DNA of 64,000 bases from Bryobacterales bacterium. GTDB lineage: Bacteria > Acidobacteriota > Terriglobia > Bryobacterales > Bryobacteraceae. Both the position numbers and the translations under genes were made by a program. Below the pieces are notes generated by a model. The model was not told the DNA's origin and did no database searches. It worked only from the letters and a program-made list of their open reading frames with translations. Below, piece after piece: positions 1-58,182 of the stretch (position 1 is its first letter; every line of letters begins with the position of its first letter). The DNA lies in assembly GCA_009697505.1 (NCBI GenBank), contig SHUD01000001.1:1-64000 (forward strand), in the 5' to 3' direction.

Positions 1-222
1 GAGAGCTAGCCTGCATTTCGCACAACGTCCCAAGGTAGATCAGAAAGAGCCATACCGGGGCCCAGCGTGGAGCGGGCTTTAGCCTGCAACGGAGGCTTCA
101 GCCTCCGCAGCGGTATAACCACACTTCGAACCGGGGACTTAAGTCCCCGTCGCAGGCTCAAGCCCGCTCCACGTTGGGATCTGCTCCTCCGTAAGCAATC
201 TCGTGTGAGAAATGCAGGCTAG
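1..222. repeat. MITE-like palindromic repeat, copy 1
   Basis: This non-coding segment is bounded by 19-bp imperfect inverted repeats at 6-24 and 204-222 (18 of 19 match; left end begins ctagcctgcatttc). Nested inside at 66-173 is a second palindrome whose arms read gtggagcgggct and the near-complement agcccgctccac, with two smaller hairpins, one of them built on ggggact/agtcccc. Bases 1-196 recur at 5090-5285 with two mismatches that I can see. No transposase is present, so if mobile it would be a non-autonomous element. I see no clear target-site duplication. Bases 223-299 show no further feature before the acyltransferase gene. Confidence 0.75.
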
Positions 223-3408: not shown

Positions 3409-3437
3409 CGATCACGGGCGACAGCTATAATGGCCGT

Positions 3438-3659
3438 ATGAAAATGACGCGACGGGCGCTGGCCGGCATGGCGGCGTTGTCCGCCGTTCCTCTTACGAAG
3501 TCTGCTGCGCAGGCGCCGGCGAAGTCCGCCGCGCAGGCACCTGTACCGGCCGCGGCTCCTGCCAATTCCGCGACCCGGCAGTTTCAAGACGCCGCGCGGC
3601 AGTTGGCGTCCGTGAAGCTGGCGCGAACCGTTGAACCGGCGTTCCGCTTCGAGGCCTAG
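3438..3659 (+). CDS. Tat-signal leader segment, probably the displaced N-terminus of the amidase
   Basis: A 73-codon frame opening with MKMTRRALAGM, a twin-arginine-like signal, followed by an Ala/Pro-rich low-complexity stretch and ending EPAFRFEA. It stops nine bases before the amidase ATG, in another frame. Reading the amidase frame upstream across the stop gives LAAVMAIPSG, so one base missing near 3655-3656 would join the two as EPAFRFEA-LAAV-MAIPSG. From memory, related acidobacterial amidases carry an EPAF-type segment just before the amidase domain. I therefore favour one exported amidase gene split by a frameshift; a separate small exported protein is the alternative. Confidence 0.5.
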   Translation: MKMTRRALAGMAALSAVPLTKSAAQAPAKSAAQAPVPAAAPANSATRQFQDAARQLASVKLARTVEPAFRFEA

Positions 3660-3667
3660 CAGCGGTC

Positions 3668-5098
3668 ATGGCGATTCCTTCCGGGGACATCTTCTTTGCA
3701 AGCATCAGTGAGCTTTCGGCAAAGCTCCGCGCCAGGGAATTCTCGGCCGTGGAACTCACGCGCGCCTTCTGCGATCGCCTGGAGAAAATCGGCGCGGCGC
3801 ATCACGCGTTGGCGCTTTCCCTGCGCGATACCGCGATCAAGAAAGCCCAGGACGTCGACGGCGATTTGAAGCGGGGCCGCACGCGCGGTCCGTTGCAGGG
3901 GATTCCTTACGGCGCAAAAGATCTGCTGGCGGTCAAGGGGCAGCCCACCGAATGGGGATCGCGTGCCTTTGCCGGGCAGAAGTTCAACGAAGACGCCTTC
4001 GTAATCAAGAAGCTTGCTAGCGCGGGCGCCATCCTGATCGGCAAACTTGCCATGATCGAACTCGCCGGCGGCGTCGGCTATGGTTCGGCGGCGGCATCGG
4101 CAACCGGCGCGGCACTGAATCCGTGGGACCGCTCGCGCTGGGCCGGCGGCTCGTCGAGCGGCTCGGGTGTTGCAGTGGCGGCGGGGCTTACCGGCTTCGC
4201 GTTGGGCTCGGAGACGTCAGGCTCGATCCTGACACCGGCTGCGTATTGCGGCGTGACCGGGTTGCGCCCGACCTATGGACTCGTGAGCCGGCGCGGAGCC
4301 ATGTCGCTGGCTTGGACCATGGACAAAATCGGGCCCATGTGCCGGTCGGCGGAGGACTGCGGCCTGGTGCTGCATGTGATCGCGGGTGCGGATGAGGAAG
4401 ACCCGGGTTCGGCGCGCAAGCGATTTGCCTACGTGCCCCAGTTCGACCGCCAGGTTTCGGATTTCACCATTGGCTACGCGCCCGTGGATTTTGAACGTGC
4501 CGCGCCGGGCACGCAAGCGGCATTCCGGGCCGCGCTCGACGTGGTGAAAGGCCTGGGCGTGAAGCTGAAGGAAGTGGAAATTCCCGATTTCCCGTACGGC
4601 GCTCTGGTGGAAACCGTGATTGGCGCGGAAGCGGCTGCGATTTTTGAGGACTTGATTCGCAGTCCGAAGCTCGAGACGATGGCCGACCCGAGCCAGGCCG
4701 CCGCCTTGAAAGCCGCGCTCGATATCCCGGCTGTGAATTATCTGAAGGCCATGCGCATCCGCACGCTGGTGCGCGAGGCGTTCCAGAACCTGCTGTACCG
4801 CGAAGTGGACATGCTGCTGACTCCGTCCAGGATGGAAACCGCCCCGCCCATCGGCAGCTTAGATGGCGGCGACGATAGGCCGATTGCCGGCAAGCGTGGA
4901 CTCGGAGACCTGATTCCCGCCGCCAACTTGGCTGGATTGCCCGCCATCTCCCTGCCGTGCGGGCTGGCCGGAGGGCTCCCCGTGGGAATTTCCCTGGTGG
5001 GCCGCGCGTTTTTTGAAAACCATCTGATCGGCGTCGGGCGTGCCTTTCAGGCGCAGACCGACTGGCACAAGCTCAAGCCGCCGGTTACGGAGAGCTAG
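3668..5098 (+). CDS. Amidase signature family hydrolase (GatA/AtzF-like)
   Basis: A 476-residue amidase signature enzyme that hydrolyses a C-N amide bond. The Ser-cisSer-Lys triad is visible: Lys84 in YGAKDL, the cis-Ser within GGSSSGSG (161-168), and nucleophile Ser186 in GSETSGSI. The conserved TMDKIGPMCRSAEDC block follows at about 218-232. No gatC or gatB lies nearby, so it is unlikely to be the tRNA amidotransferase subunit; the substrate is unknown. The preceding leader frame may supply a Tat signal. The stop codon TAG lies in the left terminus of repeat copy 2, and the last coding bases are shared with copy 1. Confidence 0.85.
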   Translation: MAIPSGDIFFASISELSAKLRAREFSAVELTRAFCDRLEKIGAAHHALALSLRDTAIKKAQDVDGDLKRGRTRGPLQGIPYGAKDLLAVKGQPTEWGSRAFAGQKFNEDAFVIKKLASAGAILIGKLAMIELAGGVGYGSAAASATGAALNPWDRSRWAGGSSSGSGVAVAAGLTGFALGSETSGSILTPAAYCGVTGLRPTYGLVSRRGAMSLAWTMDKIGPMCRSAEDCGLVLHVIAGADEEDPGSARKRFAYVPQFDRQVSDFTIGYAPVDFERAAPGTQAAFRAALDVVKGLGVKLKEVEIPDFPYGALVETVIGAEAAAIFEDLIRSPKLETMADPSQAAALKAALDIPAVNYLKAMRIRTLVREAFQNLLYREVDMLLTPSRMETAPPIGSLDGGDDRPIAGKRGLGDLIPAANLAGLPAISLPCGLAGGLPVGISLVGRAFFENHLIGVGRAFQAQTDWHKLKPPVTES

Positions 5099-5285
5099 CC
5101 TGCATTTCGCACAACGTCCCAAGGTAGATCAGAAAGAGCCATACCGGGGCCCAGCGTGGAGCGGGCTTTAGCCTGCAACGGAGGCTTCAGCCTCCGCAGC
5201 GGTATAACCACACTTCGAACCGGGGACTCAAGTCCCCGTCGCGGGCTCAAGCCCGCTCCACGTTGGGATCTGCTCCTCCGTAAGC
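5090..5285. repeat. Palindromic repeat, copy 2 (right terminus missing)
   Basis: It matches window bases 1-196 at an offset of 5089 with two visible mismatches (around 139 and 153 of copy 1). It keeps the left inverted terminus and the internal gtggagcgggct palindrome (5155-5262) but diverges at 5286, before the right terminus. It overlaps the last nine bases of the amidase, including the stop codon, and ends on the first base of the ZIP gene's stop codon. The whole amidase-ZIP intergenic space is therefore this repeat. Confidence 0.8.
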
Positions 5286-5998
5286 TAGAGTCCGCCAAAG
5301 AGCCGGAAGACGCTAGGGCTGGCGATACCCGCCAGTGCCGGGTAGAGGGCTGTGGACAGCCCGCGCCGCCGGAACTCACCGTGCACGGCGTGGCCTCCAA
5401 GATACAGGAACGTACCGCCCGCTACCGCCAGGAGTGCGTGCAGCACCCGGGGACCAAGGTAGGGCGCCAACACCATCTCGGATGCCGCCCCCAGCAGCGT
5501 AGTCCCTTCGGCAAGTGCACACCACGCCAGCGCGGAGCCACGGGAATCGACTGCGGCGCGCATGATGACTCCAAGAGCTAATCCTTCTGGAATCTTATGG
5601 ATGGCTATCGCCGCCACCAACGGGACCGCAATCCCCGCAGCGCCATTTGCGGCGGAGACGCTCCAGCCATCCAGGGCGCTGTGAAGCGCCGCGGCGATCA
5701 GCAACGGGGGAGCGAAGCCGTGCAGGGTGGACGCGCAGTGGTCGTGGTCATGAGGATGGGAGCAGGCCGGGCATACGGGATAAATCCAACGGTCCACCAT
5801 CCAGAGCACGGCACAGCCCGCGCCTATCCATGCTAAAGTATTGATCCAATGGAATAAAGATGCCATTTCCGGAAGCACCCAAAAGAGTGTAATCCCAATA
5901 AATAGGCCTCCACTGAAGGCCACCAGGCGGCGCGACCAGGCGTGAATCGAGGTAAGCCAAATGCCCCCTGCCGCGCTCAAGGTGGCGGCTATCGTCAT
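5285..5998 (-). CDS. ZIP family divalent metal transporter
   Basis: A polytopic membrane protein with the two ZIP metal-binding helices HSALDGWS and HKIPEGLALG, which form the intramembrane Zn/Fe site. Between an early pair of helices is a His/Asp/Cys-rich loop (CPACSHPHDHDHC) expected to bind metal. The ATG at 5998 gives a 237-residue protein that begins directly with the first helix. A GTG at 6046 would add 16 residues read from a duplicated stretch and is less likely. It is transcribed away from the Rieske gene; the substrate is probably zinc or another divalent cation. Confidence 0.85.
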   Translation of the reverse strand: MTIAATLSAAGGIWLTSIHAWSRRLVAFSGGLFIGITLFWVLPEMASLFHWINTLAWIGAGCAVLWMVDRWIYPVCPACSHPHDHDHCASTLHGFAPPLLIAAALHSALDGWSVSAANGAAGIAVPLVAAIAIHKIPEGLALGVIMRAAVDSRGSALAWCALAEGTTLLGAASEMVLAPYLGPRVLHALLAVAGGTFLYLGGHAVHGEFRRRGLSTALYPALAGIASPSVFRLFGGL

Positions 5999-6173
5999 GA
6001 AAAATGGCAAAGAGAGGGGCAGGGGTACTCCCGTATGACAAGCCACCGGGTCTCATCCGCCCGGATGTCTCATTGTAACGTGAGCCGCCCCGGACTCCGG
6101 AGCGGATAGGCGCGGGTAGCTACAATCAGCTGCCTTTGAACAGGTCAAATGGCAATGAGAGAGGCAGGGGGCG

Positions 6174-6191: not shown

Positions 6192-6206
6192 ACTTACTTG
6201 ACCGAA

Positions 6207-6686
6207 ATGACACTACATACGCGTAGAAGCTTTTATTCCGTGCTCCTCTCCAGCCTCGGGTCAGCCGTTGCGGCTGCTCTGGCGGTCCCGGCAGGTATCT
6301 AACTCCTCTGCGGCGGCGCTTCGAAAAGCCGCGGCACGTTCGTGGAAGCCGCCGATCTCGCCCAGTTGCACGTGGGCAAGCCCCAGGAAGTCACGTTTGA
6401 GCGGACGCGCGTGGACGGCTGGCGCGTCTTGAAAGAGAAAGTGATTGCCTGGGTGGTGCGTACCGACGACAAGAATGTGGTCGCTTACTCGCCGCAGTGC
6501 ACGCATTTAGGTTGCGCTTACCATTGGGAAGAAGAGCGAGATAAGTTTGTGTGCCCCTGCCACGAGTCGCTGTTCACGATCGACGGGAAGGTCGTCGGAG
6601 GGCCGGCGTCGCGCCCGTTGGACCGTTACGCCGTGCGCGTGGAAAACAGCAAGCTGCTCATTGGCTCCAAGATCATCAAGGCATAG
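6207..6686 (+). pseudogene. Rieske [2Fe-2S] protein of a cytochrome bc complex, interrupted by TAA
   Basis: The frame from ATG 6207 begins MTLHTRRSFYSVLLSSLG, a twin-arginine signal anchor, and runs through a hydrophobic segment to AGI, where codon 32 is TAA (6300-6302). The same frame then continues LLCGGASKSRG into an intact Rieske domain with cluster motifs CTHLGC and CPCHESLF. Family members normally have an aromatic residue where the stop lies (GIY), so one base change from TAT or TAC explains it. A GTG restart at 6342 would give a 114-residue soluble domain without export signal or anchor. The next gene, cytochrome b, starts three bases after the stop. The loss could be real or a sequencing error. 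Confidence 0.85.
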
Positions 6687-6689
6687 ATT

Positions 6690-7712
6690 GTGATGCACCG
6701 GCGCGTGCTCGATTGGCTCGAAGAGCGAACCGGAGTCGAGTCCGCCATCAAGCATTTCTTCTACGAAGACATTCCTGAATCCTCCGGTTGGCACCAGGTC
6801 TTTGGAAGCGTGGCTATGTTCGCGTTTCTGGTGCAGGCGCTGACCGGAATCCTGCTTTCACTCAACTACGCGGCGACGCCGGGCGAAGCCTACGACAGCC
6901 TGCGCTACATCATGACCCAGGTGACCGCCGGCCCGCTGATCCGGGGGATGCACCACTGGGCGGCGAGCTTGATGATCATTGTTGTCGTGCTGCACATGAT
7001 CCAGGTGTTCCTGTGGGGTGCCTATAAAAGGCCCCGCGAGGCCACGTGGATGTCCGGAGTGGTTCTGTTGCTGTTGACGCTGGCCTACGGCCTGAGCGGA
7101 TACCTGTTGCCGTGGGACAACCGGGCTTATTGGGGAACCGTGGTGGCCACGCAAATCGCCGAGCTGGCGCCAGGGCTGGGCCCTTACATGCTGCGCCTGC
7201 TGGGCAGTGATGGAACTTCGATTGGAGCGGTGACGTTCACGAGATTTTATGCGGCGCATGTATTGTTGTTGCCCCCGTTGACCATGTTGTTGATCGGACT
7301 GCATGTGTATCTGGTGCGGCGGCACGGCGTGGCGCCCACTCCCGCCGATGAAGGCCGGCCCAAGAAGAAGTTCTATCCGCAACAGGTGGCGATGGATACG
7401 GTAGCCATCTTCGTATGGTTCGCCGTGCTAATGGGGATGGCGATCCTGGCACGCGTTCCGCTGGGACACGTCGCCGATCCTACGGACCTGAGCTTTGTCC
7501 CGCGGCCGGAGTGGTACTTTCTGTTTCTCTTTCAATTCCTGACGTGGTTTGAGGGACCGCTCGAAGTCGTCGGCGCCGTGATCCTCCCGACTCTGGCGAT
7601 TGTGGCCTTGCTGCTGGTTCCTTTTGTCGACCGGGGCAAGATGGCGTTTGTGCGGCAACGCACGGGCGCGCTCGCGGTGGTTATCCTGGGACCATTTTCT
7701 GGGGCGGGCTGA
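6690..7712 (+). CDS. Cytochrome b subunit of the bc complex (3' end frameshifted)
   Basis: A 340-residue membrane protein that transfers electrons from quinol to the Rieske centre and the low- and high-potential b hemes. Heme-ligand histidines are visible in RGMHHWAASL with LHMIQ, and in FYAAHVLL with GLHVYLV. The quinol-oxidation-site motif PEWY lies at about residue 272. The last residues (GPFSGAG) are out of frame. A frame starting at 7691 continues the protein as TIFWGGLTAKAVIG, so one base appears to be missing in the GGG at 7688-7690. The intact gene would continue into the cytochrome c domain downstream. Confidence 0.85.
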   Translation: MMHRRVLDWLEERTGVESAIKHFFYEDIPESSGWHQVFGSVAMFAFLVQALTGILLSLNYAATPGEAYDSLRYIMTQVTAGPLIRGMHHWAASLMIIVVVLHMIQVFLWGAYKRPREATWMSGVVLLLLTLAYGLSGYLLPWDNRAYWGTVVATQIAELAPGLGPYMLRLLGSDGTSIGAVTFTRFYAAHVLLLPPLTMLLIGLHVYLVRRHGVAPTPADEGRPKKKFYPQQVAMDTVAIFVWFAVLMGMAILARVPLGHVADPTDLSFVPRPEWYFLFLFQFLTWFEGPLEVVGAVILPTLAIVALLLVPFVDRGKMAFVRQRTGALAVVILGPFSGAG

Positions 7713-7799
7713 CGGCGAAGGCGGTTATCGGCACACCCGTGACACGCGAGATGGATATGTCGTTGGTCCAGTCCTGGCAGGAAATCTCGGCCGGGAATC

Positions 7800-8288
7800 T
7801 TGCATCCATTTGGTTACTTCCGCCAGGCCCAGTGCGGTAGCTGTCACGAGTTTGGGAAGCCAGCAGCGGGGCCCGACTTGACGGCGGCGCCTTCCAAGCG
7901 CCCGGCCGAATGGCTCCGGGAACACTTCAAGTCCAACCCGAAAGCATCCGGTGTTCTGAAAGACGCGCAGGTCGATATGCTGGTGACCTTTGTGGCAAAA
8001 CGGAGCGAGAAGGCCGTGGATGCCTGGCAGAACGCGCCGCCGAGCGCCGTGGAGGGCGCACTTATCTATCAGGCCAACGAGTGCGCCACCTGTCACAAAC
8101 TCAACGGTGTTGGCGATGAGTTGGGGCCCTCATTGAACGGCGTCGGGGAGCGGCACGAGCGCGCATGGATTGAGCAACATTTTGCCGACCCGGCCAAGTT
8201 CTCGCCGGAGTCCATGATGCCTGCCACCAAGTTCAAGCCGGAAGACCTCAAGTTCATCACGGATTACATCACGTCGATTCCGAAGTAA
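7800..8288 (+). pseudogene. Cytochrome c domain, broken 3' part of the cytochrome b/c fusion
   Basis: This frame has two c-type heme sites, CGSCH near its start and CATCH about 80 residues later, and a likely Met ligand in SPESMMPATKF. The connecting region 7691-7808 is coding in another frame (REMDMSLVQSWQEISAGNLASI). An extra T in the TTT at 7809-7811 restores the cytochrome b frame. Thus 6690-8288 reads as one cytochrome b plus diheme cytochrome c polypeptide with a one-base loss and a compensating one-base gain 120 bp apart. The isolated frame has no start of its own better than TTG and no export signal. Confidence 0.75.
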
Positions 8289-8325
8289 CTGAGACAAACT
8301 CCTAGCCCAACGCACTTTGGGGTTA

Positions 8326-9459
8326 ATGGGGAAAATACCCGCAGACCGTAAGGTGTTATTTGTCTTCGGGACCAGACCGTAAGCGATCAAGCTCTGCCCG
8401 GTCATCCTGTACTTCCGCCAACACTTGCCATGGCTTACGGTGCGCGTTTGCGTGACGGCACAGCATCGCCAGATGCTCGACCAGGTATTGCCGGTTTTCG
8501 CGGTCCGGCCCGATCACGACTTGGATGTGATGCGGCCTGGTCAGACATTGGCCGCCCTCAGTGGCCGCATGCTGGCGGAACTCGAAGGTGTGATCGCATG
8601 CGAACGGCCGGAGTTGGTCGTGGTGCAAGGCGACACCACAACGACGCTCTGCGGCGCGCTCGCCGCATTTTACGCCCGCGTTCCCGTGGCCCACGTCGAA
8701 GCCGGGCTGCGCACCGGAGATGTGGGGCAACCGTTCCCGGAAGAAATGAATCGCGTGCTGGTGGCCCGTCTCAGCGCCGTTCACTTCGCGGCGACCCAAG
8801 GTGCCGCGCGGCATTTACGCGATGAGGGCATACCTTGCCGGGCGATTCATGTGACCGGGAACACGGGTATCGACGCCGTATTGCATGTTTGCCGGCAACT
8901 AGACCAAGGTTCGGTGCGCGGAGGAGATTGGAGTTTCCTCGCTGTGCGCCGCAAGTTGATCGTGGTTACCGCGCATCGCCGGGAAAGTTTCGGCGAGGGA
9001 TTCGAGCGGCTGTGCATGGCGATTGGCCAGCTCGCGCAACGGCGCGATGTGCAGATCGTGTATCCGGTGCATCCCAATCCCAACGTGACGGAACCGGTGC
9101 GGAGGCATTTGGCGGATCACCGGAACATTGCTTTGGTGGAGCCTCTCGATTACGTGTCTTTTGTGGATCTGGCGCGCCGGGCGTATCTGATATTGACCGA
9201 CTCCGGCGGTGTGCAGGAGGAAGCGCCTTCGCTGGGGAAACCAATTCTGGTATTGCGCGACAAGACCGAACGGCCCGAGGCAGTGGAAGCAGGCACGGCA
9301 ACGCTGGTCGGCACGGACGTGGGGAAGATCATGGCGGCCGCCACATGCCTTCTGGACGATCCTGACGAATACGCGCGCCGGCAGAAGATTCACAATCCGT
9401 ATGGCGACGGACATGCAAGCGAGAGGATTGCGGATCTGGTCACCAGAATGCTGGGTTAG
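8326..9459 (+). pseudogene. wecB: Non-hydrolysing UDP-N-acetylglucosamine 2-epimerase, interrupted by TAA
   Basis: The enzyme interconverts UDP-GlcNAc and UDP-ManNAc for surface polysaccharide synthesis. The frame from ATG 8326 reads KVLFVFGTRP, then TAA at codon 19 (8380-8382), then AIKLCPVILYFRQHLP. The family motif is GTRPEAIK, so a single G-to-T change (GAA to TAA) accounts for the stop. The rest is intact: VTAQHRQML, VQGDTTTT, HVEAGLRTGD, PFPEEMNR, TGNTGIDA, TAHRRES and TDSGGVQEEAPSLGKP. A restart at TTG 8425 would lose the first beta strand and nucleotide loop. A UDP-sugar dehydrogenase that could use its product lies at 46.8 kb. Confidence 0.9.
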
Positions 9460-9471
9460 AGTTCATTCGGT

Positions 9472-9575
9472 ATCGATTCTCTCGCCGTACACAATGGCGA
9501 CGCATACCTGGAAAGCAAGCTGCGTTCGATCCTCGCGCCGGAGTATCCGCCAGCTAAACTGGAAATCCAGTTAGG
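9472..9575 (+). other. Orphan coding-like fragment before the composite repeat
   Basis: Between the epimerase and the repeat, one frame reads IDSLAVHNGDAYLESKLR followed by SILAPEYPPAKLEIQL. This looks like ordinary protein sequence but has no start and runs into the repeat at 9582. It may be the surviving end of a gene cut by repeat insertion. I do not recognise the family. Confidence 0.3.
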
Positions 9576-9581
9576 TGTGTG

Positions 9582-9861
9582 GTGGAGCAGGCTTCAGCCT
9601 GCTACGGTGGCTTTAGCCGCCGCTGGGTGCGGAAAAACGCGTCGAGAAGAGTCTCGACGTTGCGCGCATGAGTGCGCACGCCACGCCAGTGATTGTGGCG
9701 CAAGCTCGCAGCTTGCGTCGTACTTGAAGCAGAGCCCGCCACTCTTGGCGACGCCCGGAGGCGAGAAGACCAGTTTCCGCACCCTATTTAGCCACCGCTG
9801 GGTGTGGATCAGCAAGAGATCGGGGACTGAAGTCCCCGTTGCAGGCTAAAGCCCGCTCCAC
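9582..9861. repeat. Composite palindromic (REP-like) repeat
   Basis: The outer arms gtggagcaggcttcagcctgc (left) and gcaggctaaagcccgctccac (right) match the arms of the repeat at 66-173 and 5155-5262. The right arm also carries the shared ggggact/agtcccc hairpin. The 280-bp interior is a chain of further short palindromes: cgtcgaga/tctcgacg, tgcgcgca/tgcgca, gccac/gtggc and gcaagct/agcttgc. It fills the space between the epimerase and the convergent gene at 9872. Confidence 0.7.
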
Positions 9862-9871
9862 GCGGGGGCCA

Positions 9872-11512
9872 TTACTGAGCCCGCCGGCAGTAGTCTTTCC
9901 ATTCGTCGATGGTCTTGCGCGGGGCAATGCTGATCGGGGTGGTCTGGGTGGCAATGGCACGCACGGCGGCCATGGCGCGTGGCTTGGGGTCCCAGGTCAC
10001 GTCGATTTCAAAGGCGGCGGGATCGGAAAGGTGAGGACAGACGGCGGGGAGCAATTCCTTGCGGCCCGCGAATCCGGCTTTGTCCAGCAACTGGCTGAGG
10101 AACGTGGCTTGTTGCGGTGTCAGCTGTTCCGGAACGGGCTGGCTCAACTGGTTGCGAATGCTTTCCAGATGAGTGGTGGAGCCGAGGCGGGCCATGGCGG
10201 CTTCGCTGGCATCCTGAATTCTGCGCCCGCCCGCCCACACGGCTCCGGAGCGAAAGCGCTGCTCCAGAAGCGCGATATCTTCGGCGGTACCGCTGAGACC
10301 CAGCGTGTGCATCGCCAGTTCCACGGTTTCCGAGGCAGTGCTTGGAACGGAAAGGATACGCAAGGCCGCCGCGTGCGCGTCCGAGCGGGCCGGACCTTTG
10401 GCTGCGGGAGTATAGTGACGGACAAACCAGATCAAACCGAGGCGCTCGATATTCGCTCCGGAGCGGGGCATCGAGGCGAGAAGCATGCGCATGGCCCGTT
10501 CCTCATCCAGAGCCAGCATGGCGTAGGCGGCATCGTTGCCTAGGTCGAAATCCGTCAGGTAACTTTCCAGGGCGGGGAACGGATCGAAGTCCAGGGTCTT
10601 CAGAGCGGCCACGTGTTGCAGCGCGGGATCGGCGCGCCGGTCCTGATTCGGCTCGCGGAGGATCAGCCCGACTTCGTCGCGCGGCGTCTGCGCGAACACC
10701 AGCCGCGCCTGCCTCGCCGAAACATTTTGATCCATTCCCCATAGCACGACCTGAGTTTCAAACGCGCCTTCCGGATTCACGTCGGAAGGATGAATGAAGA
10801 TGTAGTCCGTTTCCAGGCGCAGAGCCACTTCATCCGCGAGCCCGGCCAGGCCGTGGACTGCCACGGCTAACTTGGCGTTGCTTTGCGGGGTGGTCTTGAT
10901 GTCCAGCGCGCGCAGGTCCCCCTGCTTTTCCACCGAGCCTTTCCGCAACGTGTAAGCCACTGGGCCGACGGCGTGTTCGGGGGCGCGGACGACGACTTTG
11001 CGCGGAGACTCCGCAAGCACGCGGGCGGGCTCGCCGCCAATCAGCATCGCGGTGGTGCCGGAGTCTCCGTCAAACGGCCCCAGGATCGGAGCGGAGTGTC
11101 CGGCGTGGACGAATTTTGGAAAACGAAAGGCGGCGTGCGCCGGACCAGGGGCGGCGACCCGCACGGAGGCGCGGCCTAACTCCTGGCCCCGGAAATCCTT
11201 GAGGACCAAGGGCACGAATTCACCGGGCTCCCCCGCGGGCATGACCCAGGAGAAATCCCGCTCGCCCACGCGCGCGCTCTGGCCCCCCAGTTCAAATACG
11301 AAATTGGGTGGTCCTTCCAAGGTCCCGGAGAAGCGCTCGCCGGGAGCCACGTCGTCGGGCACATACGCTCGCACCTGGTTGCCGCGGACGGAAAAGGTAA
11401 ACGCCAGCAACCCAGGTCCAGCCTGCACTTGCAACGAATACGGCGTTATTTGAGCCGCGGCATGTCTCGCGAGGAGACCCGCCAGGACCCACATCAGCAC
11501 AGCCCGTTTCAT
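9872..11512 (-). CDS. Secreted protein of unknown function with a C-terminal helical repeat region
   Basis: A 546-residue protein opening with a typical signal peptide (MKRAVLMWVLAGLLARHAAA, cleavage after AQ likely). Residues 25-210 look beta-rich with two immunoglobulin/TIG-like stretches (for example FVHAGHSAPILGPFDGDSG). Residues from about 300 onward are alpha-helical, with HEAT-like pairs (DDIALLEQRF, AAMARLGS, LESIRNQL). No catalytic motif is evident. I do not recognise the family; the arrangement suggests a binding or scaffold role outside the cytoplasm. It is divergent from the histidine kinase gene. Confidence 0.75.
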   Translation of the reverse strand: MKRAVLMWVLAGLLARHAAAQITPYSLQVQAGPGLLAFTFSVRGNQVRAYVPDDVAPGERFSGTLEGPPNFVFELGGQSARVGERDFSWVMPAGEPGEFVPLVLKDFRGQELGRASVRVAAPGPAHAAFRFPKFVHAGHSAPILGPFDGDSGTTAMLIGGEPARVLAESPRKVVVRAPEHAVGPVAYTLRKGSVEKQGDLRALDIKTTPQSNAKLAVAVHGLAGLADEVALRLETDYIFIHPSDVNPEGAFETQVVLWGMDQNVSARQARLVFAQTPRDEVGLILREPNQDRRADPALQHVAALKTLDFDPFPALESYLTDFDLGNDAAYAMLALDEERAMRMLLASMPRSGANIERLGLIWFVRHYTPAAKGPARSDAHAAALRILSVPSTASETVELAMHTLGLSGTAEDIALLEQRFRSGAVWAGGRRIQDASEAAMARLGSTTHLESIRNQLSQPVPEQLTPQQATFLSQLLDKAGFAGRKELLPAVCPHLSDPAAFEIDVTWDPKPRAMAAVRAIATQTTPISIAPRKTIDEWKDYCRRAQ

Positions 11513-46822: not shown

Positions 46823-48133
46823 TCAGAGCCGGACGATTTTTTCGGACTGATACCCCTTCAGTGCATTGCGCGTATCGACGATCAACTTCGCGCTTTCCAG
46901 AATCCGCGGGTAATCGAAGTTCCTGTGATCGGTCACGATGACCACGCAATCCGCCTCCGCCGACGCGGTTTCCGGATCCATGGAAGACATCGCCGGAATC
47001 ACTCCGTCAGCGCGGAGCTGCGGTACGTACGGATCGCTATAGGTCACCTTCGCGCCGCGCTTGTCGAGCAAGTGGATAATGTCGAGCGCCGGAGATTCGC
47101 GCACGTCGTCGATTTCCCGCTTGTAGGCCGCCCCCAAAACGTGCACGCGCGAATCTTTCAACGCCTTGGCGTGATCGTTGAGCGCGTTCTGAATCTTGTC
47201 GACCACGAAATGCGGCATGTTGCCGTTGATGTAACCGGCCAGCTCAATAAAACGCGCCTCAATGCCCGCCTGTTTGGTCTTCCATGATAAATAAAACGGA
47301 TCAATGGGAATGCAGTGGCCGCCTAGTCCCGGTCCCGGATAAAACGGCATGAAGCCGAACGGTTTGGTGGCCGCCGCGTCGATCACTTCCCACACGTTGA
47401 TGCCCATGCGGTCGCACAGCATCGCCATCTCGTTCACCAGACCGATATTGATCATCCGGAAGGTGTTTTCGAGCAGCTTGACCATCTCCGCCACGCGCGT
47501 GGAGCTCACTGGAATCACGGTCTCCAGTGCCTGCCCATAAAATGCGGCGCCCAGTTGCGTGCACGCAGGCGTAATGCCGCCCACCACCTTGGGAATGTTC
47601 TTGGTCTGATACGTCGCGTTACCGGGATCCACGCGCTCCGGCGAAAAACACAGGAAGAAATCCTCGCCCACTTTGAGGCCCGGTTTTTCAAACATGGGCA
47701 GCATCAATTCATTGGTCGTGCCCGGATAGGTGGTCGATTCCAGAATCACCAGCATCCCGGGATGAAAATGTTTGGCGATCTCCTGGCAGGAGCTGACAAT
47801 GTAGCTCATGTCCGGATCTTTGGTTTTGCGCAGCGGCGTGGGCACGCAAATGTTGATGGTGTCCAAATCCGCGACGGCCGCGAAATCCGCCGTCGCGGTA
47901 ATCTTGCCTGCTCTTACGAGAGGCGCCAATACCGAGGTGGGTACATCCTGGATATAAGACTCGCCGCGATGGATCGCCGCCACCTTTTCCGGGTCGATAT
48001 CGATCCCGGTAACGGAAAATCCGGCGTGAGCGAATTCCACCGCCAGCGGCAGCCCCACATAGCCCAAGCCGACGATGCCCGTGCGCGCCTGTTTGGACTG
48101 AATCTTCTTTTCAAGCTGTTCGAATGGACTCAC
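46823..48133 (-). CDS. UDP-sugar dehydrogenase (WecC/WbpA family)
   Basis: A 436-residue four-electron dehydrogenase that oxidises a UDP-hexose (probably UDP-GlcNAc or UDP-ManNAc) to the uronic acid. NAD-binding GLGYVG is at 22-27, followed by CVPTPLRKTKDPDMSY and STTYPGTTNEL. Nucleophile Cys274 lies in GPGLGGHCIPIDPFY, with AYKREIDDVRESPAL in the C-domain. It overlaps dapF by four bases (ATGA). The damaged UDP-GlcNAc 2-epimerase at 8.3 kb would supply a possible substrate. Confidence 0.9.
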   Translation of the reverse strand: MSPFEQLEKKIQSKQARTGIVGLGYVGLPLAVEFAHAGFSVTGIDIDPEKVAAIHRGESYIQDVPTSVLAPLVRAGKITATADFAAVADLDTINICVPTPLRKTKDPDMSYIVSSCQEIAKHFHPGMLVILESTTYPGTTNELMLPMFEKPGLKVGEDFFLCFSPERVDPGNATYQTKNIPKVVGGITPACTQLGAAFYGQALETVIPVSSTRVAEMVKLLENTFRMINIGLVNEMAMLCDRMGINVWEVIDAAATKPFGFMPFYPGPGLGGHCIPIDPFYLSWKTKQAGIEARFIELAGYINGNMPHFVVDKIQNALNDHAKALKDSRVHVLGAAYKREIDDVRESPALDIIHLLDKRGAKVTYSDPYVPQLRADGVIPAMSSMDPETASAEADCVVIVTDHRNFDYPRILESAKLIVDTRNALKGYQSEKIVRL

Positions 48134-48936
48134 GCGCCCTCATTCCCCTTCCAAAAATACTCACCGCCGGCCACCAGCTCTGCCGGACCCGCCAACAGAA
48201 GGGCGCCGTTCTCCCAGCGCAACTCCAGTGGTCCCGCGGGAGTCAATACGCGCAGCGGGCTCTCCACCAGTCCGCGCGCCATCGCCGCGGCGGCAGCGCC
48301 CGTGGAACCAGTGCCGGAACTCATGGTCTCGCCCACGCCGCGCTCGAAAAAGCGCACGTCCAGCGTGTGCCGGTCCACGATCTTTACGAAAGAAACATTG
48401 GTCCGGTTGGGAAAGCGCGGATGGCGTTGGACGCGCGCGCCCAGCGCCTGCCACTCGAAATCGAAATGATCCACCAAAAACGCGCACTGTGGATTACCCA
48501 CGTTCAGGACCACGCAGTCGCGGCCCTCGATGCTGGCCCGCAACTCTTCCACTTGCGCCGTGCCCATGTTCATCTCGAAGGAAAACTCTGGTCCCGCGCG
48601 CGCGAGAAGACGCAAACGCTTCGGTCCAGCCCCGGTGGTGATCCGCACGTCAGTGAAGGCCAAACCGGCGTCCACCAGAAGCGCCGCCGCGCAGCGTGTT
48701 CCATTGCCGGAAATCTCACTCCGGCTTCCGTCCGAGTTCCACAATTCGATGGCCGCCTGAGCATTGCCGTCCGCTGCGGAAACCAATAGCCAGCCATCCG
48801 CGCCCACGCCCGTATGCCTTTCGCAGATGGCTACGGCGACAGCCGCAAAGTCTTCGAGTCCGGAGGGAAGCTGATCGCGCCAGGTGAGAAGAAAGTCGTT
48901 GCGCGCGCCATGCGCTTTGATGAAGGGGATTTTCAT
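48130..48936 (-). CDS. dapF: DapF-like diaminopimelate epimerase with one catalytic Cys replaced
   Basis: A 268-residue protein with the two-lobed DapF fold. The first catalytic cysteine is present (Cys82 in SGNGTRCAAALL), as are ICERHTGVGADGWLLV and the substrate-phosphate-like loops. The second motif, normally ACGTG, reads MSSGTGSTGAA, placing Ser at residue 207 where the second catalytic Cys is expected. Two-base epimerisation of LL-DAP needs both cysteines, so this enzyme may be altered, act on another substrate, or use serine. It overlaps both neighbours by four bases in a tight operon. Confidence 0.85.
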   Translation of the reverse strand: MKIPFIKAHGARNDFLLTWRDQLPSGLEDFAAVAVAICERHTGVGADGWLLVSAADGNAQAAIELWNSDGSRSEISGNGTRCAAALLVDAGLAFTDVRITTGAGPKRLRLLARAGPEFSFEMNMGTAQVEELRASIEGRDCVVLNVGNPQCAFLVDHFDFEWQALGARVQRHPRFPNRTNVSFVKIVDRHTLDVRFFERGVGETMSSGTGSTGAAAAAMARGLVESPLRVLTPAGPLELRWENGALLLAGPAELVAGGEYFWKGNEGA

Positions 48937-50477
48937 TGCGAATCAGGACGCCGCCGCTGGTAAATCTCAATCACCGGCGCTCCTTCTACGATAATCTGCT
49001 TCCTTAGTTCATAGTGGGGGCCGCTGCGTGCCGCTCTCAGAAGAGTTGCGGCAGTGGCATCGCCCGCCACGGCAATCGCCCACTCTTCATGCAGAAACAA
49101 TTCCGGACGCAGCGTGGCGGCGTCCCAGGCCGGATGATTGCCCTGCTGGAGTCCTTCCTGCAGACCAATCCCGGCGGCGCGGAATACGCCCGCCAGGTCG
49201 CCGAAGGAATAAAGGATCCCATCACCGGTCCGGTAATGGGCAGCCAGATAATCGCCAGATTGCTGGGTCCAGGCGCGCCGGGCCGTCGAATTTACCTCGG
49301 ATTCCTTCCACGTCACGGGATCTCCAGCGAATACACTGGCGCCCGCGATGGAGGCGATCAACACGGCCGCGACACCCGCGCGCGCCTTCCCGCCCGCAAT
49401 CGCCACCAGCGAAGCTGCCGCCAGCGCGCACAGCGGCAGACACGCCAGCGCATAGCGCGTGTTGTACCACTGATGGGGCCACAGTCCTGGCACATAGAGC
49501 GGAGTGCCGGAAGAATGCATGCTCCACACGTAAAAGACGGGAGGTAGCGCCAGCAACAACACCGGCCACCAGGCTTTCTTGGTAATCGCCACCACGGCGC
49601 CGAGCGCTCCTACGGCCAGCAACGGCACTCCCGCAACCAGTTTCATCGCCGCGAAATAATATTGCATCGCGGTCCGCCAATCGTGATCGCCGGGATAACG
49701 AGTCACTCCCTGAGCCACCTGCCGCGCATAGATTGCCGCCGCCGAATACTCACCGTTATAAAACTCCAGTGCGTTTGAATAATAGTATTGGTTGTGCGCC
49801 AGCCAGGCCAGCGGGCCGAGCGCGGCGAGCCCCGCGAAGATCGCGCCGTGCGATCGGCGAATCCACAGAATGTATAGCGCGGCAAACGGAAGCAGGAACC
49901 AGCCCTCATAGCGCGTCAGCGAAGCCGCGTTAGAGGCCGCTGCCGCCAGCGCGAGCGCGGCCAGTGACTGAGAATCGCGATACCAGATCGTGGCCCACAG
50001 CAACGCCGCGAGCGCGGCCGCAAACACCGCCTCGCTCATTGGGGTGGCCTGCAGATACAACATGTCCGGATTGAGCGCGAACAGCAGTGCCGCGGTGACA
50101 CCGGCCGCGGTGGACGCATACAGGCGCCGCGCGGCGGCGAACAAGAACGCCCCGGCCAGCACAAAACCAATCGCCGAGGGGACCACGCCGGCCAGCCCGC
50201 TGCGCCACAAATTGTCGTGCATCGCTAAGGGCAGCATCAGCAGGTGCGGCAACGGCAACCACACCGTCCCGAACTGTTCTCCGCCTGGAGTACGCGAATC
50301 CAAGACGCGCCGCGCGATGTTCAGGTGCGCCTCCGCGTCGCCGTAGAAAAGTGTGTAGCCGCGCGAGTAGCACCAGAAAGCCGCCGTCGCGCCGATGGCC
50401 GCCAGCAGCGCTGCCACTCCCAGCAGTTCCACCGCGCTAGAACGCGGTGAACGTGCGGAACTCTTCGAAGCGGGCAT
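48933..50477 (-). CDS. Membrane glycosyltransferase (GT39/ArnT-like)
   Basis: A protein of about 514 residues with roughly ten membrane helices. The first periplasmic loop contains FYGDAEAHLNIARRVLDS, whose Asp is in the position of the catalytic Asp of GT-C enzymes, followed by GTVWLPLPHLLMLPLA. A long C-terminal periplasmic domain follows. Such enzymes transfer a sugar from a polyprenyl-phosphate donor to lipid or protein. ATG 50477 overlaps the PfkB gene end by 41 bp; a GTG at 50432 is the alternative start. Its end overlaps dapF by four bases. Confidence 0.8.
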   Translation of the reverse strand: MPASKSSARSPRSSAVELLGVAALLAAIGATAAFWCYSRGYTLFYGDAEAHLNIARRVLDSRTPGGEQFGTVWLPLPHLLMLPLAMHDNLWRSGLAGVVPSAIGFVLAGAFLFAAARRLYASTAAGVTAALLFALNPDMLYLQATPMSEAVFAAALAALLWATIWYRDSQSLAALALAAAASNAASLTRYEGWFLLPFAALYILWIRRSHGAIFAGLAALGPLAWLAHNQYYYSNALEFYNGEYSAAAIYARQVAQGVTRYPGDHDWRTAMQYYFAAMKLVAGVPLLAVGALGAVVAITKKAWWPVLLLALPPVFYVWSMHSSGTPLYVPGLWPHQWYNTRYALACLPLCALAAASLVAIAGGKARAGVAAVLIASIAGASVFAGDPVTWKESEVNSTARRAWTQQSGDYLAAHYRTGDGILYSFGDLAGVFRAAGIGLQEGLQQGNHPAWDAATLRPELFLHEEWAIAVAGDATAATLLRAARSGPHYELRKQIIVEGAPVIEIYQRRRPDSQ

Positions 50478-51354
50478 CAATTTCTTCGCGCGTGAGCGTG
50501 CGGAACCGTTCCACCCCAAAGCGTTCGCAGCAGAAGCTGCCCATCACGGACCCATAGATCACGGCGCGGCTCAGCATCCCGCGGCTGATGTGATCGCCTT
50601 CCAGGCTGAAGCCGTGCTCGGCCAGATAGCCGATAAAACCGCCCGCGAAGCAGTCGCCGGCGCCCGTCGGATCGAATACGTTTTCCAGCAGGTAGCCCGG
50701 CACGATGAAATACGAGTCGCGCCGGAACAGCATCGCCCCGTACTCGCCGCGCTTGATCACCACGGTGTGCGGACCCATGTCCAGGATCTTGGTGGCCGCC
50801 TTGCGCAGATTCGTTTCGCCCGATAACATCCGCGCTTCATGGTCGTTGATGAGCAGGAAGTCCCAGGGCTTGATGGTCTGCAGAAGTTCGTCGCGGAAGT
50901 CGCTGATCCAGAAGTTCATGGTGTCGCCGCCAACCAGCCGCAGATGCTTCATCTGGTCCAGCACACCGCGTTGCAGGCTCGGTTGAATATTGCCGAGCAG
51001 CAGGTAGCGTGCATTCTGGTAGCTCGCTGGCAGCTTGGGCTGGAAATCCGCAAACACGTTGAGATCGGTTCGCAGAGTGACGCGGTCGTTCATGTCGTCG
51101 GTATACTTGCCCTCCCAGAAGAACGTCTTCCCGGGCACGCGTTCCAGGCCTTCCAGGTCGATGTTGCGGCCGGCCAGCAGATCCGCGTCGTCCTGCGCGA
51201 AATCGTCGCCCACCACGGCCACGATGCGCACTTGCGTGAAATAACTCGCGGCCAGAGAAATATAGGTGGCGGCCCCGCCCAGCATGCGTTCCACGCGTCC
51301 GTGCGGCGTTTCCACGCCATCGTAAGCTACCGACCCGACAACTACCAGAGACAT
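50437..51354 (-). CDS. PfkB-family sugar/nucleoside kinase
   Basis: A protein of about 305 residues with the ribokinase fold. The N-terminus MSLVVVGSVAYDGVETPHGR begins the domain directly, which favours the start at 51354. The PfkB C-terminal signature DPTGAGDCFAGGFIGYL contains the catalytic Asp and anion-hole glycines. MLGGAATYISLAASYF is the first family signature region. The substrate could be adenosine, ribose or a sugar such as N-acetylhexosamine; the operon with a glycosyltransferase and UDP-sugar dehydrogenase favours a sugar. Confidence 0.87.
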   Translation of the reverse strand: MSLVVVGSVAYDGVETPHGRVERMLGGAATYISLAASYFTQVRIVAVVGDDFAQDDADLLAGRNIDLEGLERVPGKTFFWEGKYTDDMNDRVTLRTDLNVFADFQPKLPASYQNARYLLLGNIQPSLQRGVLDQMKHLRLVGGDTMNFWISDFRDELLQTIKPWDFLLINDHEARMLSGETNLRKAATKILDMGPHTVVIKRGEYGAMLFRRDSYFIVPGYLLENVFDPTGAGDCFAGGFIGYLAEHGFSLEGDHISRGMLSRAVIYGSVMGSFCCERFGVERFRTLTREEIDARFEEFRTFTAF

Positions 51355-51429
51355 TTCTTGATTGTATGCGATGGCAGTGCGCCATCGCGCACTCCTTGAG
51401 CGACGACCCACTTGAGCCGGAACGCTAAA

Positions 51430-52617
51430 ATGGGATCAGTGATTGCTCGTATCATCCGTGTTCTTCCGGACCTGATCGTGATGGTGGCCGCCTTGGCCGG
51501 ACAGTTGTTCAGCGCCTGGTGGGGTTGGCGGCACATGGCCCGCTATCCGGATCCGGCGCGCCGCCGGGCCCGCTCCGCCATCGCCGCCGCTTGCGGGATC
51601 TCCACCGCCGTCCTGTTATTCGGCGTCCTGCTCCGGTTTGATCGTGTGCTCCGCCATTTTCCCAAGGGTGACTGGCACGCATGGACACGCGGCGTCATCA
51701 TCGCCTGGATGCTGGTGTCTTTGTCCTGGCTATTGGGATTCGCCATCGTGCGCTGGCTTGCGAAACGGAGTGCCGCGCCTCACAGCGCCACCCGTCGCCA
51801 CTTCTTGCGGACGGCGCATGCCGCTGCCTTTGCCGCTCCACCCGCCGTGGTCGGAGCGATGTTTGTCCAGCGCAACCGGATCGAACTGCGCGAGCACAAG
51901 ATAGAAATACCCGGCCTGCCGCCTGCTCTGGACGGCCTGCGTCTGGTGCAGTTGACAGACATTCACATGGGCCCTTTTCTGAGCCGCCGGGATCTGAAAC
52001 GTGCCGTGGCCATGGCCAATGAAACCCGTGCCCACGTCGCACTGGTGACGGGCGATCTCATCACTAACAGCGGCGACCCACTGGATGACTGCCTGGACGC
52101 TCTGGCGGCTCTCCGTGCCGAAGCCGGTGTTTTCGGTTGCCTGGGGAATCATGAGCAATATGCCGACGCTCAGGACTACAGCGAGCGGGAAGGCGCGCGG
52201 CGCGGCCTGCGCTTCTTGCGTCAGACCGCAGCGCCTCTTCGCTTCGGCAATGCGACCCTGAATCTGGCCGGTGTCGATTATCAAAGACTGCGCCAGCCCT
52301 ATCTGGTGGGAGCCGAAAAGATGATCCAACCCGAAGCCTTCAACCTTCTGCTCTCGCACAACCCGGATGTATTTCCCGTGGCCGCCCGCCAGGGATTTCC
52401 GCTCACGATTTCCGGCCACACCCACGGCGGGCAGGTGCGCGTGGAAATTCTCAGCGCGGATCTGAATATGGCGCGCTTCTACACGCCCTACGTGGACGGG
52501 CTCTACCGGCAGGACGCCGCTTCGATTTTTGTTTCGCGCGGGATCGGCACCATAGGCATTCCGGCGCGCTTTGGCGCTCCTCCGGAAGTGTCCCTTCTGA
52601 CGCTAAAGCGCGTTTAG
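51430..52617 (+). CDS. Membrane-anchored metallophosphoesterase
   Basis: A protein of about 395 residues with three to four N-terminal helices (residues 1-110) and an RR-containing segment (ATRRHFLRTAHAA) before a calcineurin-like domain. Metal-binding motifs are LTDIHMG, VTGDLITN, GCLGNHEQY, LLLSHNPD and ISGHTHGGQV. The plan resembles YkuE/YaeI-type phosphodiesterases acting on membrane lipids. ATG 51430 is used; no strong ribosome binding site is visible. It is divergent from the PfkB gene. Confidence 0.88.
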   Translation: MGSVIARIIRVLPDLIVMVAALAGQLFSAWWGWRHMARYPDPARRRARSAIAAACGISTAVLLFGVLLRFDRVLRHFPKGDWHAWTRGVIIAWMLVSLSWLLGFAIVRWLAKRSAAPHSATRRHFLRTAHAAAFAAPPAVVGAMFVQRNRIELREHKIEIPGLPPALDGLRLVQLTDIHMGPFLSRRDLKRAVAMANETRAHVALVTGDLITNSGDPLDDCLDALAALRAEAGVFGCLGNHEQYADAQDYSEREGARRGLRFLRQTAAPLRFGNATLNLAGVDYQRLRQPYLVGAEKMIQPEAFNLLLSHNPDVFPVAARQGFPLTISGHTHGGQVRVEILSADLNMARFYTPYVDGLYRQDAASIFVSRGIGTIGIPARFGAPPEVSLLTLKRV

Positions 52618-52667: not shown

Positions 52668-54890
52668 ATGTCCTCACAAGATGGCCGCATGAGGGCCGCG
52701 GTGACGAACCCGAAAGTCGTCGTCGCGACCACCGTGGCTCTTGCCTTCATCAGTTTCTGGCGCGGAGCTTCGATCGTATTAAGCGATCTGGCGTCGTCCA
52801 TGTTCTACGCCGGCGGAGCGGCCGAGGCGGCCGTGGGCAAAGCCGCGCCCTGGTTCGTGCTGGGCGTCATGATGTTCGGATTCGCCATCCGCGGCGTATA
52901 CCTGGAAAGCTGCAGCATGTACGTGCGGGGCGGCGTGTACGTGGTGGTCGGCAACAGCATGGGGCCGGTGATGGCCAAGCTGTCGGTTTCCGCTCTGGTA
53001 TTCGACTACATCCTGACCGGACCCATCAGCGTGGTCAGCGCCGGCCAATATCTGGGCGCGCTCCTGAACGAAATCAGCGAGCTGCTCCATTCCGGCTATC
53101 ACGTCAACGTAAACCTGTTTGCCGCGGGCGTGGGGATCCTGATCACCATCTATTTCTGGTGGGCCAACATCAAGGGCATGCACGAATCCAGCGGTAAGGC
53201 GCTCCGCATCATGCAGATCACCACCGTGATGGTGGGCATTTTGTTGATCTGGTGCCTGCTCACGCTGCTGGTGGCCGGCCGCTGGCACTTGCCGCCCGCG
53301 CCGAAGCCTTCCAATCTGGTGTTCGCGGAATCCGCGCAGGGCTGGTTACAGGGCACCATGTGGATGCAAATTCCCTTGGTGGTGGTGATCATCGCCTTCG
53401 GCCATTCGCTGCTATCGATGAGCGGATTCGAAACGCTGGCGCAGGTGTACCGCGAAATCGCTTCACCCAAGATGAAGAACCTGAAGATCGCGGCCAACAT
53501 CACGTGCTGGTACGCGGTGCTGTGCACGGGTCTCGTTTCGTTGTTTGCCGTCATGATCATTCCCGACGATGTGCGGCCCCAATACATCGACAACCTGATT
53601 GGCGGATTAGCCATGAACCTGAGCGGGCCATATCTGCTCAAGCTGGGTTTCCACATCTTCGTAGTGATTGTCGGCGGGCTGATCCTGGCCGGCGCGATGA
53701 ATACGTCGATCATTGGGGCCAACGGCGAGCTGAATCGCGTGGCCGAGGATGGCGTGCTGGTTCCCTGGTTCCGGCAGCCGCACAAGCGTTACGGCACTAC
53801 CTTCCGGATGATCAACATGATCGCCCTGTTGCAGTTGGCCACGATTCTGTATAGCCGCGGCGACATGAAGGTCCTGGCGGAAGCGTACGCGTTTGGCGTG
53901 GTATGGAGCTTCTTCATGAAATCGCTGGGCGTGACCGTTCTCCGCTTCCAGCGCAGCGATCAGGAATACAAGATGCCGCTCAACCTGCGCGTGGGGCGCT
54001 TCGAAATCCCCATCGGGCTGGGTTTGACGACGCTGGTTTTGGGATCCGTGGCCATCGCCAACCTGTTTACCAAGCAGGTCGCGACTCAGTACGGCATCGG
54101 CTTTACGCTGATGCTGTTTACCTTGTTCACGGTTTCGGAAAAGGTCAACCGCCGCCGCGCCGGGGTCGAACCCAAGGGGATGGAACATTTCAATTTGGTT
54201 CACCAGTTCCAGGTCGATGCGGCAAGTCTGCATTCGCGGCCGGGGTGCGTCCTGGTGGCGGTACGCGATTACCAGCGCATGGACCACCTGAAGCGGGTGC
54301 TCGAAAAGACGAATTTGCGGCGCCACGATATCGTCGTGATGACGGTGCGCACGGTTACCGTTGGCGCAAGCGAATATGATCTGGAAGATAATCAACTGTT
54401 CAGCGGTTACGAGAAGGAACTGTTCACCCGCGTGGTGAATTTGGCCGAGAAGGAAGGCAAGCCGGTGGGATTGCTGACCGTATCCGCCACCAATCCCTTC
54501 GATGCGATGGCGGCCACGGCGGACCGGTTGCGTTCCTCGCGCCTGGTCACCGGGGTTAGCGCGCGCATGTCCTCGGAAGAGCTGGCGCGCCAGATCGGTC
54601 AGGCGTGGGAGCGGTTGCCGGAACCGCGACATCCCTTTTCGCTCGAAATTATCAGTCCCGACCGGCCGTCGGTGTTCTTCAATCTGGGCCCACACCCGCC
54701 GCGTCTGTGGCCTGAGGATGTGGATCTCTTGCATGACATTTGGCTCAACATGAGCGAGCAGGAACAATTAGGCTCCCGTCTCCACCATCGCGATGTGGTC
54801 GGGCTGGCGCTGCGCCGGCTCCGCAAGGATCTGGAGCAGGGCCGCGACGAAATTGTCACGGAGGCGCAACGGGAGTTGCGCCACGATTAA
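52668..54890 (+). CDS. APC-family permease with a C-terminal cytoplasmic domain, copy 1 (intact)
   Basis: A 740-residue protein. Residues 15-480 form about 12 membrane helices of the amino acid-polyamine-organocation superfamily: the first helix is broken by SFWRGASIVLSDL, and later blocks include GPISVVSAGQYLGALLNEIS and GHSLLSMSGFETLAQVYREIASPK. The C-terminal 230 residues are a soluble domain with UspA-like features (GCVLVAVRDYQRMDHLKRVLEKT, DIVVMTVRTV). The substrate is unknown. A strong AGGAAAG site precedes the ATG. A closely related, interrupted second copy follows 56 bp downstream. Confidence 0.88.
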   Translation: MSSQDGRMRAAVTNPKVVVATTVALAFISFWRGASIVLSDLASSMFYAGGAAEAAVGKAAPWFVLGVMMFGFAIRGVYLESCSMYVRGGVYVVVGNSMGPVMAKLSVSALVFDYILTGPISVVSAGQYLGALLNEISELLHSGYHVNVNLFAAGVGILITIYFWWANIKGMHESSGKALRIMQITTVMVGILLIWCLLTLLVAGRWHLPPAPKPSNLVFAESAQGWLQGTMWMQIPLVVVIIAFGHSLLSMSGFETLAQVYREIASPKMKNLKIAANITCWYAVLCTGLVSLFAVMIIPDDVRPQYIDNLIGGLAMNLSGPYLLKLGFHIFVVIVGGLILAGAMNTSIIGANGELNRVAEDGVLVPWFRQPHKRYGTTFRMINMIALLQLATILYSRGDMKVLAEAYAFGVVWSFFMKSLGVTVLRFQRSDQEYKMPLNLRVGRFEIPIGLGLTTLVLGSVAIANLFTKQVATQYGIGFTLMLFTLFTVSEKVNRRRAGVEPKGMEHFNLVHQFQVDAASLHSRPGCVLVAVRDYQRMDHLKRVLEKTNLRRHDIVVMTVRTVTVGASEYDLEDNQLFSGYEKELFTRVVNLAEKEGKPVGLLTVSATNPFDAMAATADRLRSSRLVTGVSARMSSEELARQIGQAWERLPEPRHPFSLEIISPDRPSVFFNLGPHPPRLWPEDVDLLHDIWLNMSEQEQLGSRLHHRDVVGLALRRLRKDLEQGRDEIVTEAQRELRHD

Positions 54891-54946
54891 AGCACGGAGT
54901 GAATGATCTGACGGATTCCACCCCGCACGGTAGCCCGAAGCTCGCG

Positions 54947-58182
<3,236 letters not shown>

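Follow-up and report, generated by a model that had tools for sequence, protein, structure and literature searches.

The closest described counterpart of the locus studied here is the bc complex with fused cytochrome b-c of Bryobacteraceae, as at locus L031 (CAMAVI010000045.1) of Candidatus Sulfopaludibacter sp. SbA3, which, given identical bc proteins, we take to be the nearest genome and our reference relative (G002). It has the same gene order of ZIP, Rieske, and cytochrome b-c and the same families PF00355, PF00033, PF00032, and PF00034. Our locus differs from it by one stop and two frame-breaking indels, and the stretch ahead of the Rieske start is 79 bases longer in L031. Recent bacterial pseudogenes provide a second point of comparison. 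As in our locus, otherwise constrained genes are hit there by a nonsense codon, by indels of single bases, and by partial deletion, but our locus is unlike them in holding several inactivating lesions without the accompanying missense changes that would be expected. A third system is alternative complex III with caa3 oxidase, as described for Acidobacteria (PMC8407424), which carries out the same task as the bc complex, from quinol to cytochrome c; its family is unrelated to bc, and it was not found in our 65%-complete bin. Among the matches listed for literature on bc loss or pseudogenes in this group, nothing dealt with this case. What we describe is probably ordinary recent pseudogenization.

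The window, by which we mean the whole 64,000-nucleotide stretch of DNA that was analyzed, is contig C6:1-64000 of a metagenome bin (G000) that amounts to 2.56 Mb in 87 contigs and is 65% complete. It was compared with bins assigned to Bryobacteraceae, Bryobacterales, Terriglobia, or Acidobacteria, and it aligns with G002 over 59.1 kb at a mean identity of 85.8%; DNA identity at the bc locus itself is 84%. The Rieske Fe-S protein gene (6207..6686, forward strand) starts with ATG at 6207 and is broken by an in-frame TAA at 6300-6302, which is codon 32, with the PF00355 match lying on the part downstream of the stop. The original prediction, that this TAA occupies a usually aromatic site, is borne out by 94 distinct homologs, 90 of which have Tyr in this column and 2 have Phe, the remaining 2 being gapped, and the Rieske frame of L031 is unbroken. 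As read, the Rieske product is predicted to stop ahead of the Fe-S domain, leaving no membrane-anchored Rieske protein.

The adjoining gene, a fusion of cytochrome b and cytochrome c (6690..8288, forward strand; PF00033/PF00032 and PF00034), is broken by two indels. In L031 the two cytochromes lie in one 533-codon open frame, relative to which the cytochrome b part of the window lacks one base; BLAST places the gap at 7691-7692, directly after GGG 7688-7690, where the frame had been said to be lost, and the shifted frame ends at a premature TGA at 7710-7712. One extra base relative to L031 in TTT 7809-7811, where the cytochrome c frame had been said to return, restores the first frame. Close homologs (E <= 3.5e-132) occur in 26 other genomes, and in 24 of these the gene is open over at least 506 codons, the two exceptions being G007 (315 codons, with the match ending at query residue 300) and G053 (360 codons). 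Three lesions in the bc locus had been noted, with cytochromes b and c taken as separate genes. The lesions stand, but since relatives carry both cytochromes as one fused ORF, both indels fall in one gene and the genes hit number two, not three. The cytochrome b product, as read, would end before the cytochrome c half. The Rieske cysteine/histidine motifs, PEWY, and two CxxCH (heme) motifs are all present on our reading of the sequence, as had been claimed; the complex is thus represented by PF00355, PF00033, and PF00032 with their motifs, while full-length translatable subunits are absent. Only one copy of cytochrome b was found in the bin. From the known architecture of bc complexes, a Rieske protein ending before its Fe-S domain and a cytochrome b ending before the cytochrome c half would not be expected to yield a working complex.

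The damage had been described for 6207-8288, but it runs on beyond 8288. Downstream, wecB (UDP-GlcNAc 2-epimerase; 8326..9459, forward strand; PF02350, TIGR00236) starts with ATG at 8326 and is broken by a TAA at 8380-8382 that replaces a Glu conserved in 19 of 19 homologs, and the sequence after this TAA still matches the epimerase family almost completely (TIGR00236). Behind it, comparison with L031 reveals an 82-base remnant of a family 2 glycosyltransferase (9468..9549, forward strand) with a further missing base near 9481; the L031 gene is an intact 379-aa open frame. L031 in turn keeps only a 268-base remnant of wecB (L031 9625-9892) with an internal stop, and opposite members of the wecB/glycosyltransferase pair have been lost in the two lineages. 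The broken block therefore spans approximately 6207-9549 and comprises Rieske, the fused cytochrome b-c gene, wecB, and the glycosyltransferase. The genes on either side are unbroken: on the left a ZIP-family transporter (5285..6046, reverse strand; PF02535) without a frame-breaking indel relative to G002, and on the right a 546-aa gene without a Pfam match (9872..11512, reverse strand), likewise without a frame-breaking indel.

With moderate confidence, we favor the reading that this four-gene block was inactivated very recently in the lineage of the window. It builds on lesions present in the assembled sequence, on their clustering, on the deletion of most of the glycosyltransferase, and on the fact that relatives have each of the four genes unbroken. 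We infer that the bc lesions are present in the cell as well. Frames are broken where those of relatives are open (the bc gene in 24 of 26, the Rieske gene in L031, and the wecB Glu in 19 of 19), and on sequence grounds we regard the genes as putative pseudogenes.

The substitution pattern bears directly on the age of the lesions. Differences from L031 at codon positions 1/2/3 number 13/5/53 in Rieske and 43/16/201 in cytochrome b-c. Missense changes were polarized against outgroup loci, six for cytochrome b-c and five for Rieske. At outgroup-invariant sites, the branches of the window and of G002 carry 6 and 5, respectively, in cytochrome b-c (14 and 11 by majority), and 1 each in Rieske (2 and 1 by majority). 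Residues rare among homologs are slightly commoner in the window than in G002: of the sites that differ, cytochrome b-c has 49, with 8 such residues versus 6, and Rieske has 13, with 5 versus 3, one of them being an Ala at a column that is 99% Gly. At 95%-conserved columns, the window deviates at 1 of 35 in Rieske (rank 12 of 94), at 2 of 141 in cytochrome b-c (rank 29 of 99, compared with 3 of 141 and rank 11 for G002), and at 1 of 119 in wecB. There is thus no clear missense excess on the window branch over its sister G002 in Rieske or cytochrome b-c, nor a clear excess at the wecB columns, so that either the block began to decay very recently or the lesions in bc are artefacts of this locality. 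The suggestion that the damage is very recent or artefactual agrees with these mostly third-position differences; the bc lesions appear to be either very young or not real, and the constraint data fit both. Under a simple mutation model, each inactivating lesion should be accompanied by 3.0-8.7 missense changes, and each nonsense codon by about 23, so that three or four lesions with almost none would be odd for neutral decay.

In a doubtful but serious competing explanation, the point lesions in bc, perhaps together with the stop in wecB, are local assembly or sequencing errors, due for instance to low coverage or a mixture of strains, and the bc complex of the cell works. The genes do look fully constrained apart from the lesions, the source is a 65%-complete metagenome bin, and that bin yielded a cbb3-like oxidase but no second cytochrome c reductase. 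Against this, the lesions are concentrated in a single block well away from the start of the contig, and random errors numerous enough to create two stops should also bring many missense errors, which are not seen. The adjoining glycosyltransferase is moreover lost by a deletion, which a base-call error does not explain, and wecB has decayed in G002 too, marking this as a place that is losing genes in both lineages. Together, the glycosyltransferase deletion and the wecB decay in both lineages favor real decay of the stretch over base-call error, although the decay of these two genes is no proof of decay in bc.

Real lesions that are polymorphic, with the block broken in part of the population and unbroken in the rest, would account for inactivation without missense erosion, a metagenome bin being a consensus sequence. 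The bin showed no second allele, however, and three separate lesions on one allele would still need time, so we consider this explanation improbable.

How exceptional is the block within its surroundings? A frame-by-frame scan of G000 against G002 covered 95 ORFs trusted in G002, or 110,325 bases. They came from the window (59.1 kb aligned), from 100 kb of contig C55 (48.4 kb aligned), and from 10 kb of contig C15 (9.4 kb aligned). The scan flagged seven ORFs in G000, and the reverse scan of G002 flagged none. Two flags were kept, namely cytochrome b-c and a permease with a TAG at 55409. Of the five dropped, those in window 46826-48328, 50440-51542, and 3431-5095 and in C55 71934-73441 concern stop-to-stop ORFs and are located 135-189 bases from the ORF's beginning, so that they coincide with or precede the probable start codon; the first two were judged solely by where the ORFs start. 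The fifth, at C55 80448-80834, has 129 codons and resembles a shadow frame. Because the scan ignores the first 120 bases of each ORF, the Rieske stop was not flagged by the scan itself, which also missed the deleted wecB of G002 and may have missed comparable cases elsewhere. The permease flag belongs to two tandem amino-acid permease genes (window 52668-57136; PF13520), the second of which carries at 55409-55411 an in-frame TAG in place of a Gln codon of G002; apart from this it resembles its G002 counterpart.

That TAG is the one accepted lesion outside the block in the 110,325 bases, and the block holds four of the five accepted point lesions when wecB is added to the compared coding bases. 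Under uniform placement, the chance of finding three of four lesions within 1.51 kb is about 0.002, a figure computed after the cluster had been seen. The chance of four of five within 2.08 kb is 0.0001, likewise computed after the fact and counting wecB, whose 5' part has no G002 counterpart. Even if as many as 4.74 lesions are allowed for elsewhere, as an upper rate, at least three would fall within 2.08 kb with a chance of 0.0001, with the caveat that counting all five dropped flags would put the rate slightly above 4.74. One other lesion in 110 kb makes uniform error unlikely, and we reject both window-wide error and genome-wide decay as the main cause.

There is very little room for the idea that the genes are functional through stop read-through combined with ribosomal frameshifting. 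The strong constraint outside the lesions speaks for it. But the two TAA codons replace different residues, Tyr in Rieske and Glu in wecB, only one other in-frame stop (the TAG for Gln) was accepted in the 95 compared ORFs, the bc gene lies in one open frame in 24 of 26 relatives, and no slippery sequence was seen by eye. We regard this explanation as scarcely credible.

Very recent inactivation would be easier to understand if the complex can be spared, and relatives offer some indication that it can. A close bc homolog (E <= 5.6e-140) is found in 17 of the 22 other genomes of the genus. Three of the 22, G005, G010, and G021 (listed completeness 88%, 100%, and 89%), are without Rieske and cytochrome b-c beside the same aroDE-amidase pair, and these absences may represent one shared loss. 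The absences in G006 and G015 were withdrawn, as both genomes keep bc sequence cut by a contig end. Judging from gene content, the bc complex looks dispensable in the genus, and its work is presumably done by alternative complex III instead. As a check for another quinol oxidizer, NrfD-family genes were sought and found in 22 of the 22 other genomes, in 19 of which NrfD and COX1 lie within approximately 7 kb of each other. In G002, the cluster on contig C9 (about 33-45 kb; L219 5753-17992) encodes a multiheme cytochrome, a 1046-aa Fe-S/molybdopterin-type subunit, NrfD, a cytochrome c, and a caa3-type oxidase. We read this cluster, whose gene content was examined in G002 only, as a putative alternative complex III-type locus. 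This is in line with the alternative complex III associated with a caa3 oxidase that is described for Acidobacteria (PMC8407424).

In the 65%-complete G000 bin, neither NrfD nor a bd oxidase was found, the latter being present in 10 of 23 genus genomes; the incompleteness makes these absences weak. Contig C15 of G000 matches the DNA adjacent to the cluster in G002, but beyond this match it continues for only 494 bases, in unrelated sequence, before it ends. The bin also contains one cbb3-like COX1, which scores below the NCBIfam family cut-offs. A cbb3 oxidase needs cytochrome c, and keeping one with no NrfD or bd oxidase found in the bin therefore argues against loss of the bc complex. The claim that the cell has lost its bc complex is nevertheless plausible to the extent that the Rieske protein and the cytochrome c half could not be made as read and that one cytochrome b was found in the bin. 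On this preferred reading of very recent inactivation, the nonsense and frameshift lesions would inactivate the complex, and the loss would be tolerated as electrons could still reach cytochrome c via an alternative complex III, which is present in relatives and may have been left out of the incomplete bin. We think it rather unlikely, if worth raising, that the genome has been caught giving up its bc complex in favor of alternative complex III, with lesions preceding any measurable missense erosion; were it true, it would point to fast, possibly selected, block-wise loss instead of slow drift. If the lesions are real, they add one more sign that the bc complex is expendable in these acidobacteria, with the loss seen at an early stage. 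The case also cautions that motifs alone are poor proof that a bc complex is present, just as an incomplete bin is poor proof of absence.

Some further features surround the block. The 79 additional bases of L031 (approximately 7429-7507, corresponding to window 6197-6206) separate a stretch with a TATAAT from the start codon of Rieske; other relatives gave no alignment by eye across them, and they were either lost here or gained in L031. Promoter and terminator scans gave no excess over shuffles. An apparent frame break in the amidase (3438-3659 / 3668-5098) was rejected as a lesion, as L031 has the same arrangement. The small ORF at 3438-3659, just upstream of the amidase in another frame, has a signal-like start and no Pfam match, and also occurs in L031. 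Finally, related palindromic REP-like repeats flank the broken block at 5147-5267 and 9590-9870, with arms of 47-50 nt that are 81-88% alike, and short motifs of the same kind also occur near window 74-104.
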